Below the pieces are notes generated by a model. That model ran no database searches and was not told the origin of the DNA. It was given only the letters and a program-made list of their open reading frames with translations. A stretch of DNA of 5,505 nt, from the NCBI GenBank assembly GCA_003164475.1, contig PLTL01000361.1, positions 23,453 through 28,957 of the forward strand, given 5' to 3'. The translations under genes were made by a program, and so were the position numbers. The stretch comes from Candidatus Dormiibacterota bacterium (GTDB lineage Bacteria > Chloroflexota > Dormibacteria > UBA8260 > Bog-877). Below are positions 1 through 4,191 of this stretch, in pieces (the first letter of the stretch is position 1; each line of letters begins with the position of its first letter).

Positions 1-205
1 GTCGCATGCTGCCCGACAGGATCGGCGTCACCATCCAGTTCCCACTGTGCACCGAAAACACCGCGAACCCCAGTGCACCAAGGACCACCACGACCAGCAC
101 TGACCAGATTCCGGTCCGGACACGCCGTGCGACCGTGGCCCTCCGCGGGCGTCCACGACTCCCGCGCTTTGGGGCGGGGTTCTCACCCTCGGGGATCGTC
201 GCCAT
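1..205 (-). CDS. Signal peptidase I, SipW-like, N-terminal part (runs off left edge)
   Basis: This is the first 68 codons of a membrane-bound type I signal peptidase, which cuts signal peptides from exported proteins on the outer face of the membrane. Residues 1-32 form a basic, Arg/Pro-rich cytoplasmic tail. Residues 33-52 are one hydrophobic membrane segment (IWSVLVVVVLGALGFAVFSV). They are followed by WMVTPILSGSM, the family's catalytic box, in which Ser66 (the serine before Met) would be the nucleophile. The general-base residue (Lys, or His in the ER/SipW type) lies outside the window, so the subtype is inferred from the neighbours: two upstream genes on the same strand encode proteins with SipW-cognate signal peptides. 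The ATG is the only usual start after an in-frame TGA. Its ribosome site is weak (GGAGAGG about 14 nt upstream, or AGGA 2 nt upstream). The family call is firm; the SipW subtype is probable. Confidence 0.85.
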   Translation of the reverse strand, partial: MATIPEGENPAPKRGSRGRPRRATVARRVRTGIWSVLVVVVLGALGFAVFSVHSGNWMVTPILSGSMR

Positions 206-423
206 GGTCCTATTGTCTGCCTCTCCGTAACGCGGCTGATCGGAGACCAGGAAGAGCCAATCCGGTCGCCTTCAAAAAGACTCGGTCAAGTCGCAGGCCC
301 ACGCCCATCCTGAGTGTAGAACCCATTGAGACGTTCCCCCCCGGGACAGAATGTTGCCAAGCTCCACTTCCTACCGCGGTCAGATGAATGGGATTCAGGT
401 CAGCCCCCCGCCCCAATGGAGAA

Positions 424-458
424 GCGGCGGCGGGCGACCACGAGGGCCGCGCCGCCGC
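424..458 (-). terminator. Strong GC hairpin 3' of the second TasA-like gene
   Basis: A 9-bp perfect stem (424-432 with 450-458) is followed by a 2-nt bulge and a 5-bp inner stem (435-439 with 445-449) closing a 5-nt loop. On the minus-strand transcript the inner stem contains one G-U wobble. It begins 8 nt after the TAA of the upstream gene and precedes the signal peptidase gene by about 220 nt. There is no clear U-run (the following bases are TTCTCC), so it may be a partial terminator or a 3' stabilising structure that lowers peptidase expression relative to the secreted subunits. Its core, CCACGAGGGCCG, recurs downstream of the other paralogue. Confidence 0.45.
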
Positions 459-466
459 CGAGGCGC

Positions 467-1114
467 TTAGCTTGAGTAGGTCAGCGTCACGTTCACCGTG
501 TCAACGCCGTTCTCAGCGTCAGTGCCGAGTTCAGGGGCGTTGCTAATGACGTCTGTTGGAGGTGAGCCTGCCTGCACGGGGAAGTGCACAGCGGGATAGA
601 TGTAGCCCGACAGGTTGCCGCACCCAGTGTCCTCGTTCCCCGCGTAGAACACAACAGTGTAGGTGTCAGTCGCGGTCGGTGCGATCGAACCACCGACGGG
701 CATGTTGCCTAGCCCCTCGTCCGCTGACATGAGGCCATTGAATACAACGGTGCCGTCGCTGTAGAAGCACATTGACATTTCGCTGGCCAACGCGCTGCCC
801 GGCGTGTTGCCGGAGATGTCCTTCACCTGGAGGTTAATCTCGTTCGCTGTGACCGTACCGTTGTTGGTGATGGTGATGAGTTGGGGCGTACTGATGAACG
901 ACGATCCGACCGGTCCGATGTTCGGGAGGGTCAGGTCGGTCGTGTTTTGGCCACCGCTTGCGTTCGGTGAAGAGAGGACCACGCTGAGATTCCCAGCCGT
1001 GATCGTTTGGCTGCTTGTGGTTTGGGTGGTCCATTGCGCCGCTGCGCCAGCCCCGATCAGGGCGAGAGCCGCAACGCAGAGCCCCCCAAGTATCGCCATT
1101 GTCCGTAGTTTCAT
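467..1114 (-). CDS. TasA/camelysin-like secreted protein with SipW-type signal peptide (paralogue 2)
   Basis: This is a 215-residue exported protein, probably a surface or extracellular-fibre subunit. Residues 1-26 are a signal peptide: basic MKLR, hydrophobic core, then GAGAAA with likely cleavage after Ala26, leaving QWTT. The pattern hydrophobic-GxG-xA-aromatic followed by TITAGNLSV resembles the SipW-cognate signal and first strand of TasA/camelysin proteins. A later block (STPQLITITNNGTVTANEI, residues 75-93) matches the family's beta-sandwich strand with its NNG turn. The mature part is Thr/Ser/Gly/Asn-rich and acidic, with two cysteines (C116 in MCFYS, C165 in TGCG) that could form a disulfide. 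There is no sortase motif or C-terminal anchor. The start has a good ribosome site (AAGGAAGGG) ahead of CTAG-ATG. The upstream paralogue shares its first 30 residues exactly. Fibre formation is inferred from the family and was not observed; another secreted beta-sandwich role is possible. Confidence 0.85.
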   Translation of the reverse strand: MKLRTMAILGGLCVAALALIGAGAAAQWTTQTTSSQTITAGNLSVVLSSPNASGGQNTTDLTLPNIGPVGSSFISTPQLITITNNGTVTANEINLQVKDISGNTPGSALASEMSMCFYSDGTVVFNGLMSADEGLGNMPVGGSIAPTATDTYTVVFYAGNEDTGCGNLSGYIYPAVHFPVQAGSPPTDVISNAPELGTDAENGVDTVNVTLTYSS

Positions 1115-1135
1115 CTAGTCCCTTCCTTCTTTGAT

Positions 1136-1151
1136 GCCTCTGGTTCGAGGC
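1136..1151 (-). promoter_or_regulatory. Leader hairpin with GAACCA loop, upstream of paralogue 2
   Basis: On the minus strand a 5-bp perfect stem (GCCTC/GAGGC) closes the six-base loop GAACCA, ending 21 nt before the ATG and just ahead of the ribosome site. The same loop on a changed stem precedes the other paralogue. Sixteen bases starting at TATCT (5' end of the element) align without gaps at 12 of 16 positions between the two leaders. It may be a 5'-UTR structure affecting mRNA stability or translation; this is inference. Confidence 0.5.
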
Positions 1152-1173
1152 TGCTAGAGATAGAGACGGTGCG

Positions 1174-1188
1174 CGGCCACGAGGGCCG
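1174..1188 (-). other. Small hairpin 3' of paralogue 1, in the intergenic spacer
   Basis: A 5-bp perfect stem (CGGCC/GGCCG) with a 5-nt loop sits 26 nt after the stop of the upstream paralogue. It shares the core CCACGAGGGCCG with the larger hairpin after the downstream paralogue. It is too short and lacks a U-run, so efficient termination is unlikely. The two paralogues are only 100 bp apart and may be cotranscribed, with this element modulating read-through or RNA decay. Confidence 0.35.
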
Positions 1189-1214
1189 GACCGCTACATA
1201 GGCGTGTTCCATGG

Positions 1215-1859
1215 CTAGCCTGAGTACTCCACGGTGATGAACGGAGTGTCACTGCCGTTCTCAGCCGCGGTGAGCAGTTCTGGCGCAGTGCTAGTGCTGC
1301 CTGCCACCAATGGCGTACCGGTACCATACTGCCAGCCCGAATAGCTGCCGCAGCCTGTGACCTGGTCCGCCCCGGCGTAGAACACAGCCGTGTAGTTGTC
1401 GGTACCCAGCGGCGCGAGCGTGGTGGGGTAGAGCCCGATGCTGCCCTCGGCTCCTGACAAGGGACCGTTGTACACAACCCAGCTCTGGCTGTACAGGCAC
1501 ATGTACACTTCGCTGGCCAACGCGGGTCCAGCAGGAGCTGTGCCAGGGGTATCACCCACCGTGAGCGTGATCTCGGTCGCTGTGACCGTGCCGTTGTTGG
1601 TGATGGTGATGAGTTGGGGCGTGCTGGCGAACGAAGATCCGACCAGTCCGACCGCCGGCAATGCAAGGCTGGTGCAGCTACCGTAGGCATCGGTTGCCGT
1701 GCAGCTGCCGGGGCCTGACAACCCCACGCTGAGATAGCCAGATGCTATCTGCTGACTGCTGGTAGTTGTGGTGGTCCATTGCGCCGCTGCGCCAGCCCCG
1801 ATCAAGGCTAGGGCGGCAACGCAGAGCCCACCAAGGATCGCCATTGTCCGTAGTTTCAT
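1215..1859 (-). CDS. TasA/camelysin-like secreted protein with SipW-type signal peptide (paralogue 1)
   Basis: This 214-residue exported protein is first of the tandem pair. Its signal peptide (residues 1-26, likely cleaved after GAGAAA) and first mature residues QWTT are identical to the downstream paralogue, and the DNA is nearly identical there, pointing to a recent duplication or ongoing conversion. IASGYLSV at 38-45 is the family's first strand and STPQLITITNNGTVTA at 79-94 the conserved central strand-turn. The C-terminal APEL-TAAENG-DT block (192-205) is also shared. The middle has diverged: it carries an extra insert with Cys53 and Cys62 besides the shared pair C121 and C170, so perhaps two disulfides. 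There is no cell-wall anchor. The start is fixed by GAGGA 4 nt before ATG. It is likely secreted and processed by the SipW-like peptidase encoded downstream, then assembled or retained at the surface. The family assignment rests on signal and strand motifs and is good; the exact function is open. Confidence 0.85.
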   Translation of the reverse strand: MKLRTMAILGGLCVAALALIGAGAAAQWTTTTTSSQQIASGYLSVGLSGPGSCTATDAYGSCTSLALPAVGLVGSSFASTPQLITITNNGTVTATEITLTVGDTPGTAPAGPALASEVYMCLYSQSWVVYNGPLSGAEGSIGLYPTTLAPLGTDNYTAVFYAGADQVTGCGSYSGWQYGTGTPLVAGSTSTAPELLTAAENGSDTPFITVEYSG

Positions 1860-1877
1860 CTAGTCCTCAATCTATGA

Positions 1878-1895
1878 GGCCCCTGGTTCGGGGCC
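1878..1895 (-). promoter_or_regulatory. Leader hairpin with GAACCA loop, upstream of paralogue 1
   Basis: On the minus strand a 6-bp perfect stem (GGCCCC/GGGGCC) closes the loop GAACCA and ends 18 nt before the ATG. Compared with the leader of paralogue 2 the loop is unchanged, the second pair from the loop changes from C-G to U-A, and one extra outer pair is present. This is consistent with selection on an RNA structure, though one covarying pair is limited evidence. Confidence 0.5.
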
Positions 1896-2327
1896 GCTGC
1901 AGATAACGAACCCAGTCGCTGCTCATGCTGCGGGGTTCCGCTGTGATCGAGGACTCAGCCCGATTGGGCCTCAGTCACGGTTTTCGCCTCACGGGTGGGT
2001 ACGACTGCGGGCTCGTTGTCGTTGAGCACCGCCGGTCGCTCCGCTACAAATCCAGACGCACCCTCCTCCCAACAAACGCTGGCTCACAGGGTTGGGTGGA
2101 CCACTCCCCAGATCTTTGCTCTCTCTGGCCTACCCAGCCCTACGCCGACTGTGTTCCACTCAAGAAACACGTACTCCGAGTGGCAATCGGTTGCCAGCCC
2201 CTCCTTTCCAGATTGACGAGACTGTAGCACGTTTGACGGGCTGGTAACGCTGTTATGTTCAAAAGAACAGGAGCGTTACACCGTCTTCAGATCAGCACTG
2301 GCGGGGTTCGAGGGGTCCAGAGGCATT
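1896..2327. other. Intergenic region upstream of the TasA-like genes, no convincing gene
   Basis: No frame on either strand shows recognisable motifs or the strong third-position GC bias of the neighbours; the longest plus-strand frame (1925-2227) reads like random sequence. The promoter of the secreted-protein genes should lie near the left end, but no clear -35/-10 pair was found. TTATCT just upstream of the leader hairpin is only a weak candidate. The right part is rich in inverted repeats: TGGCAA-TCGG-TTGCCA (2181-2196), CCACTC/GAGTGG (around 2156-2183) and the large palindrome at 2244-2279. TTGACG occurs twice, 20 bp apart (2213 and 2233). Confidence 0.5.
2244..2279. repeat. 36-bp nested inverted repeat (possible operator or recombination site)
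   Basis: The outer arms GTAACGCT (2244-2251) and AGCGTTAC (2272-2279) are perfect 8-bp complements. Inside, TGTTC-AAAA-GAACA (2256-2269) is a second perfect 5-bp inverted repeat with a 4-nt centre. The site is AT-rich compared with its surroundings. It lies between the secreted-protein genes and the broken small reading frame. There is no U-run for termination in either direction, so a protein-binding or recombination site is at least as likely as a terminator. Confidence 0.5.
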
Positions 2328-2372
2328 GGCTGAGATCAGTGGTAGGCGGCGTAGGTGCCGATCAGGGAGACC
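2328..2372. repeat. Distal copy of a 45-bp direct repeat of the CPBP gene 3' end
   Basis: This segment matches 3410-3454 at 38 of 45 positions, in the same orientation, 1,082 bp apart. In the other copy it spans the last codons, stop and first bases after the CPBP protease gene. Here it ends a small minus-strand frame in the same phase (GTYAAYH-stop against GTHAACH-stop). A duplicated gene 3' end is what integration at the end of a gene leaves behind, but no integrase is visible. Confidence 0.5.
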
Positions 2373-2530
2373 GTCTCACCCTCGATAGGAGAAGGGCTGA
2401 ACTCGAGGTGCATGAGGCTACCCCAGAAGGGTTCCGTTCCTGGCGGCCAGTCGCCGCTGACCTAGACGTCACGGCCGGGGGCAACCTTGGAAAGGAGTTT
2501 CGAGCGTGTCAGCAGCACTGACTCACTCAT
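2336..2530 (-). pseudogene. Small reading frame interrupted by in-frame TAG (possible gene remnant)
   Basis: From an ATG at 2530 the frame reads MSESVLLTRSKLLSKVAPGRDV, then TAG (2464-2462), and continues in the same frame for 42 more codons (VSGDWPPGTEPFWGSLMHLE... to ...SLIGTYAAYH) before TGA. The part after the amber codon looks protein-like, alternating hydrophobic and polar residues as in a beta hairpin. There is no good ribosome site. I do not recognise a family. It could be a small gene killed by a nonsense mutation, the end of an older gene, or a chance frame. Amber read-through is a remote alternative. Confidence 0.3.
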
Positions 2531-2632
2531 GCCCCCAGCCGCTTATGGTAAGGATAACATCGATCGTCACCAGTTAACACCGGCGACGGACTTCAGTTCA
2601 ACAGAGTGACCGGCTGGCACGGCTCGGGGCGC

Positions 2633-3343
2633 CTATCCGTGGTCCCCCGTAGTCGGCACAGGACCCACCTGGGCGGCACCCCCTTCAGGACCGTCCGGAG
2701 CGGCGCGTCCGCGGCGGCACATCGCCCGCCATCGTGCAGGGAGGTTAGCGTCGCGCGTTCGTGCCCGCGTGGGCGCGCCGGAGGGCAACCGGCCAGTGGC
2801 GCACGCGACCCGTGACGGTGATCTCCGGCCGATCCCCAGCGCCCGGCTCTGCGCCGTGGCCGGCGCCGTTACTACACCACCTCTGGCCTTCCTTTCCTCA
2901 GCGATGGCCTCACCACGCATGCGCCGCCACCCGGCCCTGGCCCGGTAGGGAAGCAAACGGCTGTCAGCCGGCCCTCCCACGCCAAAGCCCACGCACCCCA
3001 GCGCATCTGGACTCGTTGGCAGCGCCGCCAGGAGGACCGCCGCGCCTCCGAGCCAGGTAGGTAGCTCGACCAGCGGAGCGCCGAGATACAAGGGGACCCG
3101 GGCCTCCCGGCTCACGAGGCGAGGGTCACAGCTCCAGCCAAGTTCCAGCGACAGCAGCACCATTGACTTCGGGGTGAGGACTGCCTGGCGGATGGGTGCA
3201 CCGCTCGTTGGCACGATCAACCAGTGGGTGGTCTCATCGGCCCGTAACGCCAGCACCAGGACACCCAGCAGCGTCCCTACCCTCCGCTGAGCGCATCCTT
3301 GGTGGTCGGTCGTGGCGGGCGACTGACGGGTCCGTGCCACCAA
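2633..3343 (-). CDS. Doubtful hypothetical protein (possibly decayed gene)
   Basis: A 236-codon open frame begins with TTG. Over its first 120 or so codons, base composition by codon position is mildly coding-like (third above first above second position GC), but weaker than in the genes to its right. This part has two short hydrophobic stretches (VGTLLGVLVLAL at 22-33, GGAAVLLAALP at 99-109). The last 100 residues are Arg/Pro/Gly-rich and look like translated noncoding high-GC DNA. No domain or motif is recognised and no clear ribosome site is seen. It lies between the two copies of the 45-bp direct repeat. It may be a lineage-specific gene, a decayed one, or no gene at all. Confidence 0.25.
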   Translation of the reverse strand: MVARTRQSPATTDHQGCAQRRVGTLLGVLVLALRADETTHWLIVPTSGAPIRQAVLTPKSMVLLSLELGWSCDPRLVSREARVPLYLGAPLVELPTWLGGAAVLLAALPTSPDALGCVGFGVGGPADSRLLPYRARAGWRRMRGEAIAEERKARGGVVTAPATAQSRALGIGRRSPSRVACATGRLPSGAPTRARTRDANLPARWRAMCRRGRAAPDGPEGGAAQVGPVPTTGDHG

Positions 3344-3409: not shown

Positions 3410-3454
3410 GGCCGAGATCAGTGGCAGGCGGCGTGGGTGCCCATCACGAAGATC
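3410..3454. repeat. Proximal copy of the 45-bp direct repeat, at the CPBP gene 3' end
   Basis: This is the partner of 2328-2372 (38 of 45 identical). It covers the last 11 codons and the stop of the intramembrane protease gene plus 8 bp beyond. All differences inside the coding part change the amino acid, so the similarity was not kept by protein selection alone. Confidence 0.5.
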
Positions 3455-4191
3455 GCCACCACCGCGATCAGGTTGAAGCATGCGTGCAGCACCATTCCCG
3501 GCACCAGCGATCGGGATCGCTCGTAGACGAGGGCCAGGGCCAATCCAGCGATGAACAGTGACGGGCCCAGGAGCAGGATCGAGCCGCCCACGGACAGGGT
3601 GTGAGCCAGGGCGAAGACGGCGGCGCTGATGAGCACCGACAGGGTCACCCCCAGGCGGGGCCGCAGGCCCCCGTATATGAATCCCCGGAAGACGATCTCC
3701 TCCACGATGGGGGCGATGATGGCGATGGAGATCACCGCCAGGTAGGGATCGCCCCCGAAGGCCTGGGAAATGGTGCAGTCCTGGGGGTTCTTTATCCCTC
3801 CCAGGAGGGGGGAGAGGAACTCCGAGATGAGCCCGGTCAGGATCTGGAGCGCCAGCGCTGCGGGCGGCATCAGGATCACCAGCCAGAGCGGAGCCCGGTG
3901 AATGCCCAGCCGGGCCCAGGCGCGCCCGGACCGGCGGCTGGCGAAGAAGACCACGATCGCCAGCAGCGCTCCGTAGAAGGCGAGGGTGGTCGCGAAGTTG
4001 TAGTAAGGCAGGATCACCTTGAAGGGGTGCCCGGTCAGCGACCGGATCACCCCCACCTGGTGTAGCCCGAGCACCACGATCGCGGGCACGACGAGTGCCA
4101 CCACCAGGGCCGGGACCGCCACCACCGTGGCCAGGAGGATCTGACGCAGGCCCCAGGTGACCTCGGCGCTCGCTGGGTCCGTCGGCTCCAC
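3418..4191 (-). CDS. CPBP family intramembrane glutamic endopeptidase
   Basis: This 257-residue polytopic membrane protein belongs to the CPBP (CAAX protease/bacteriocin-processing, Rce1-like) family. About seven hydrophobic segments are visible, roughly at 17-43, 63-84, 100-122, 150-172, 183-199, 203-222 and 229-250. All three family motifs are present: EEIVFR (E164, E165, R169), FALAH (F193, H197) and HACFN (H236, N240). The glutamate/histidine site should therefore be competent for peptide-bond cleavage inside the membrane. The length is normal for the family. The start is GTG with GAGG 8 nt upstream, and this choice leaves 14 bp after the preceding gene's stop, so the two are probably one operon. 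The substrate is unknown. Bacterial members act in bacteriocin maturation or self-immunity, or on unknown membrane proteins. The 3' end coincides with a direct repeat found again 1,082 bp away. Confidence 0.93.
   Translation of the reverse strand: MEPTDPASAEVTWGLRQILLATVVAVPALVVALVVPAIVVLGLHQVGVIRSLTGHPFKVILPYYNFATTLAFYGALLAIVVFFASRRSGRAWARLGIHRAPLWLVILMPPAALALQILTGLISEFLSPLLGGIKNPQDCTISQAFGGDPYLAVISIAIIAPIVEEIVFRGFIYGGLRPRLGVTLSVLISAAVFALAHTLSVGGSILLLGPSLFIAGLALALVYERSRSLVPGMVLHACFNLIAVVAIFVMGTHAACH

Follow-up and report, generated by a model that had tools for sequence, protein, structure and literature searches.

In the tapA-sipW-tasA system of Bacillus subtilis, the N-terminal strand of each TasA subunit passes to the next subunit, and the proposed source of the first strand is TapA (PMC9674648). 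The available parts of PMC10151520 and PMC13082335 describe two TasA-like subunits and sipW, with no TapA, in Bacillus cereus. SipW-linked matrix proteins are also found outside Bacillus, as with BsaA/SipW of Clostridium perfringens in the accessible part of PMC7395162, a likeness drawn from their description. Here we describe a comparable gene set in a 5,505-nucleotide stretch of DNA (the window; G+C 66.6%) from a Candidatus Dormiibacterota bacterium (contig PLTL01000361.1, positions 23,453 to 28,957). The set consists of two genes for secreted TasA-like proteins, subunits A and B, and the beginning of a signal peptidase gene. We consider it likely that this module makes a TasA-like extracellular fibre, its subunits being exported via a SipW-type signal that the linked Ser-His peptidase would remove. 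The small gene set of this lineage probably builds surface protein fibres much like the biofilm fibres of Bacillus.

The locus resembles that of B. subtilis in its SipW-type signal, its linked peptidase (of the His type in relatives), its TasA-like fold, the aromatic residue at mature position 2 and the donor-strand segment. It differs in having two near-equal subunits, a Cys pair shared by the family and a peptidase gene downstream of the subunits, and in missing the curated TasA cut-off; moreover, no TapA or other starter protein was seen in the window. The missing TapA is not unusual, since B. cereus, in the partial accounts cited above, also has two TasA-like subunits and sipW without it. 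On those accounts, the B. cereus sipW-tasA/calY locus is the nearest known genetic arrangement. It includes CapP, whereas nothing like CapP was recognised among the window genes, and the window subunits are distant in sequence.

The three genes lie on the reverse strand. Subunit A, the first of the set, is encoded by an open reading frame of 214 amino acids (1215..1859) that scored 231 bits with the family profile, and subunit B by one of 215 amino acids (467..1114). The predicted SipW/ER-type signal peptidase is represented by its first 68 amino acids (2..205), which end in TPILSGSMR and are open at the window edge. Its start codon is at 205, separated from the end of the B gene by 261 bases. 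An earlier note on this DNA had described two adjacent genes with identical signal peptides and, next to them on that strand, a gene for a type I signal peptidase truncated by the edge, and this arrangement was borne out. The products were 60% identical overall (E 7e-59) and completely identical over residues 1-30. The first 30 codons differed by 6 synonymous and 0 amino-acid changes, while the nonsynonymous (dN) and synonymous (dS) divergence of the remainder was 0.38 and 0.72. Thus, the identity of the export signal is constrained and is no chance effect. Judging from these sequences, the signal is kept constant while the exported part of A and B diverges. The predicted signal peptides span residues 1-26 (1782..1859 in A and 1037..1114 in B, both on the reverse strand), with putative cleavage after AAA. 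A and B would be exported with this near-invariant SipW-type signal peptide, and the linked peptidase would cut it.

A first scan of genomes that used only the two window proteins gave no relatives, and a profile of A and B yielded 78 relatives among 7982 scored candidates. A genome scan led to six loci, five in metagenome-assembled genomes (MAGs) of Acidimicrobiaceae/Acidimicrobiales and one in a 'Candidatus Dormiibacterota' MAG. The isolates bear the names palsa, bog and fen, which hint at peat. Strong matches, taken as E 1e-40 or better, occurred in 9 of 172 genomes in the family of genome G001 and 2 of 32 in that of G006; in the class sample (395) and the phylum sample (251), each drawn from a larger group, the query genome alone was strong. 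In all 11 close assessable loci (L001-L006 and L050-L054), the last subunit gene was followed by a same-strand peptidase gene, with roughly 7 to 314 bases between them; L060 stops at a contig edge and stands outside this count. The link between subunits and peptidase is therefore kept in related genomes, where the earlier note had allowed for unrelated genes. Another 13 genomes had weak matches only, and the peptidase adjoined the weak subunit in seven of the eight fetched. A viral origin was considered and rejected after no relative appeared in three viral contig scans or in a tblastn search of one of the relatives, P0025, against phages; plasmids were not searched.

The predicted structure of mature B, a folded chain about 190 residues long in which residues 1-18 lacked regular structure, had a predicted local distance difference test (pLDDT) score of 89. 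It was a TasA-type beta-sandwich, and its best solved fold match was the TasA fibre. A TasA-like fold had been set beforehand as a test capable of refuting the proposal, which withstood it. The second and third matches were archaeal bundling pili (7ueg) and the Sulfolobus thread (7pnb, Saci_0406), which share a similar fold and form donor-strand filaments. Sequence comparison found no link to solved TasA and returned only two actinidin matches (E 0.14 and 0.29). Residues 27-41 of A (1737..1781) and of B (992..1036), again on the reverse strand, sit at the place equivalent to TasA 28-38 and are the putative donor strands; in 38 of 40 rows of the family, mature position 2 held an aromatic residue (F or W). 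Sequence and fold agree with donor-strand exchange, which is how we propose such a fibre would assemble. A and B could each donate and accept strands, which would make them shaft subunits that may co-polymerise in a fibre with a matrix or adhesion role.

Alternatively, A and B could be SipW-processed surface proteins that remain self-complemented monomers, acting as a coat or as secreted binding proteins without any polymer. A stable, self-complemented monomeric form is known for TasA (PMC9674648). The lack of a visible starter protein also agrees with this explanation, and the 40% sequence difference between A and B could mean separate binding roles. We nevertheless regard it as unlikely, because the closest solved folds of B were all filaments. 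Furthermore, the aromatic residue at the donor position was present in 95 of 102 short members of the family, and such a donor-like segment would be unneeded by a monomer.

Evidence for the peptidase class came from the relatives. The window stub reached no curated family cut-off. Over all 68 residues it was 74% and 69% identical to the N-terminal parts of the complete peptidases of L054 and L006, and the Ser nucleophile was present in its SGSM-type box (SGSMR). This box read SGSM in 17 of 19 complete relatives; of the two most distant ones, one had TGSM and the other GGSM. When aligned, all 19 had His as the base where LepB has Lys. From the identity of the stub to the L054 and L006 enzymes, a His base is expected in the window peptidase as well, at a residue lying beyond the edge. 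Three related peptidases were tested, and all scored above the TIGR02228 cut-off (65-72 versus 51.85) and below that of the NF046067 Bacillus SipW model (52-64 versus 190). Judged on these relatives, the peptidase is probably not the general Lys-type LepB that the earlier note had considered as an adverse outcome. TIGR02227 (LepB family) members, assigned by score and not by base residue, were above cut-off elsewhere in 11 of 11 genomes, indicating that the module peptidase is a second enzyme. It is possible to suppose that A and B are secreted paralogues of unrelated function lying by chance beside LepB, given the incomplete peptidase and its lack of a curated match. However, the conserved adjacency, the His base, the similarity of the stub to a His-type enzyme and the TIGR02227 members elsewhere make this very improbable.

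Curated models were searched, as the earlier note had proposed. The window proteins stayed below TIGR04088 (SipW-dependent signal, cut-off 19 bits; B 14.1 bits, A no match) and PF12389 (camelysin/M73, cut-off 22.5 bits; B 14.1 bits, A none), and neither matched NF046066 (TasA) at E<=1. In an 84-row family alignment, whose first row was entered without its signal peptide, 45 rows matched TIGR04088, 29 PF12389 and 10 NF046066 at E<=0.01. By its sequence, then, the family is a distant relative of TasA and camelysin. We call the window proteins TasA-like and not TasA because they missed the curated TasA/camelysin cut-offs. Family members shared near-invariant N, G, C and Y-A-G residues, and the Cys pair was conserved in 39 of 40 rows. 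That A and B are ribosomal peptide precursors or camelysin-type metalloproteases is scarcely credible, since the source name of several relatives ('predicted ribosomally synthesized peptide with SipW-like signal peptide') and the sub-threshold PF12389 match are opposed by the long folded chain, the filament fold neighbours and near-invariant residues unlike a metal site, the last by inspection only.

The relatives carried two further features. The first was a riboswitch. Among the 9 strong-match Acidimicrobial genomes, 8 (G001-G005, G732, G733 and G735) had Rfam aptamers of the c-di-GMP-II-GAG/GCG type at gathering score upstream of their subunit genes, G685 being the one without. A model from 11 of these aptamers picked up additional copies ahead of the first subunit in L001 (61 bits) and in L051 (50 bits). 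The aptamers directly upstream of subunit genes were located in L001 (2754-2837 and 1189-1288), L002 (8256-8339), L004 (3664-3744), L005 (1611-1694), L050 (6381-6464 and 4490-4573), L051 (2959-3042 and 1366-1465), L053 (2130-2213) and L060 (977-1061 and 1583-1665). From the family name, we infer that these variants sense cyclic di-GMP (c-di-GMP). Thirty aptamer loci were fetched, some of them incomplete, and 11 had a subunit-like or peptidase gene (12 when a 16-bit match in L092 is counted), seven of these 11 being in genomes already counted. Neither the window nor L006, L052 or L054 had the riboswitch; in the window there was no match at gathering, and two sub-gathering matches were taken as chance. 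Separately, L003 had a c-di-GMP-II-GAG aptamer (2025-2107) downstream of the peptidase gene with no recognised subunit after it, and a class A bacterial RNase P RNA gene (288 bits) lay upstream of the subunit gene in L006 (1873-2245).

The second feature was an extended class of subunits. A C-terminal extension of more than 60 residues was found in 41 of 146 proteins with the domain. With the donor segment classed by profile alignment, the aromatic donor position was missing in 32 of the 33 extended proteins with an alignable N-terminus; these extension and donor counts include identical or near-identical pairs, such as P0090 and the L051 protein. The seven short proteins without the aromatic (P0051, P0122, P0115, P0129, P0131, P0134 and P0138) fell inside the extended clade of a tree of 139 of the 146 domains, in which the first six were labelled as extended by hand. 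Forty of the 42 extended-labelled rows fell in a single clade (support 100/97), with P0108 and P0158 outside. This implied essentially one donor loss kept through divergence and not repeated losses. Where a neighbourhood was available, the extended gene immediately preceded the peptidase gene in 6 of 6 cases (L001, L002, L004, L005, L050 and L051). Five of them encode cadherin-like C-terminal repeats and no donor-like segment (L001 3746-4954, L002 10001-11197, L004 4595-5920, L050 1596-2795 and L051 4037-5353), and the L005 subunit has a low-complexity tail in place of repeats. A model of an extended subunit had a mean pLDDT of 61, and we used its C-terminal repeats (mostly 72-83 per ten-residue block, one 60), setting the pilin part aside. 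In this low-confidence model, the repeats were similar to many cadherins and to the cadherin-like region of SraP, an adhesin (4m03, TM 0.60 by target).

An extended subunit could accept a strand and not donate one, and would for that reason end the chain opposite a TapA-type starter. The class is therefore a candidate tip adhesin or terminator, with its tip position inferred, and fibres in Acidimicrobiia would consist of shaft subunits plus this tip adhesin or terminator. The chaperone-usher tip adhesin FimH is likewise an acceptor and not a donor of strands, with an adhesive domain of its own. FimH and the extended subunits of the relatives, a class outside the window, share only this logic; the assembly is unrelated and the adhesive domain is at the opposite chain end. 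The opposite arrangement is found in the archaeal cap Saci_0405, which keeps the donor and lacks the acceptor (PMC9715654).

The genomic position of the window module was also compared. It lies beyond dxs, a membrane protein gene and the gene of a CPBP intramembrane protease (3418..4191, reverse strand; PF02517, 76.9 bits), the last being a neighbour that marks the slot and stands outside the fibre set. The dxs-membrane-CPBP order was seen in all four genomes retrieved for the phylum of G006, which had been selected for the best dxs matches. Identity of dxs by itself did not separate the candidate lineages, its best values being 70-71% both in that phylum and in the class of G001, although the best bit scores leaned towards the phylum of G006 (163 versus 144). 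In L109 and L112, the gene after CPBP was transketolase-like and the module was missing, and L110 ended inside CPBP. In L111, the gap between these two genes (6780-9643) held a SipW-like peptidase (TIGR02228, 90 bits), a camelysin-family protein that exceeded its cut-offs (Pfam 31.5 versus 22.5, TIGR04088 22.4 versus 19) and a 269-residue protein with, by inspection, a C-terminal membrane segment. The slot seems to accept SipW modules with differing subunits, and the window appears Dormibacterota-like by its gene order and peptidase. Within the window, reverse-strand leader hairpins upstream of A (1878..1895, GGCCCC-GAACCA-GGGGCC) and B (1136..1151, GCCTC-GAACCA-GAGGC) had a common GAACCA loop and one compensatory stem-pair change, in two copies only. 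No sigma-70 promoter was found in positions 1-3300. A 59-base direct repeat (2328-2386 and 3410-3468, 80% identical) was also present. This repeat looks like a second copy of the end of the CPBP gene, about 1.1 kb downstream of that gene and perhaps a gene remnant.

Several of these observations count against our interpretation or are at best neutral. The missed PF12389 cut-off belongs to the first kind. As for the others, L063 has its peptidase 3 kb from the weak subunit, the single exception among the weak loci fetched. The profile comparison of the family with the L111 camelysin covered 41 columns only (signal and donor region), at a probability of 50. The aptamer was over cut-off in 38 of 172 family genomes and so is not exclusive to the module. 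P0105 is extended yet aromatic at the donor position, and P0158 is perhaps a second exception among the eight extended proteins without an alignable N-terminus. With these points in mind, we offer a broader interpretation tentatively, at somewhat less than an even chance. In this interpretation, Acidimicrobiia and Dormibacterota would share a separate branch of donor-strand fibres, gated by c-di-GMP through a class-II-type riboswitch, capped at the tip by a donor-less subunit with cadherin repeats and assembled without chaperone or usher. The window would hold a reduced form, in which the two shaft subunits have no cap beside them.

What is new rests mainly on the relatives; the riboswitch and the extended class are absent from the window. 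In the open-licence literature, no paper was found on the module in Acidimicrobiia (SipW with Acidimicrobi-, SipW-dependent with Actinobacteria; Dormibacterota was not searched), and none of the papers joining the c-di-GMP riboswitch with TasA or SipW was, by title, on such an operon. Taken together, the relatives suggest how such genes might be turned on and how a fibre tip might form. If this is true, a sparsely studied lineage would make a defined surface fibre that a second messenger controls directly, and its donor-less subunits would make the ending of donor-strand fibres directly testable.
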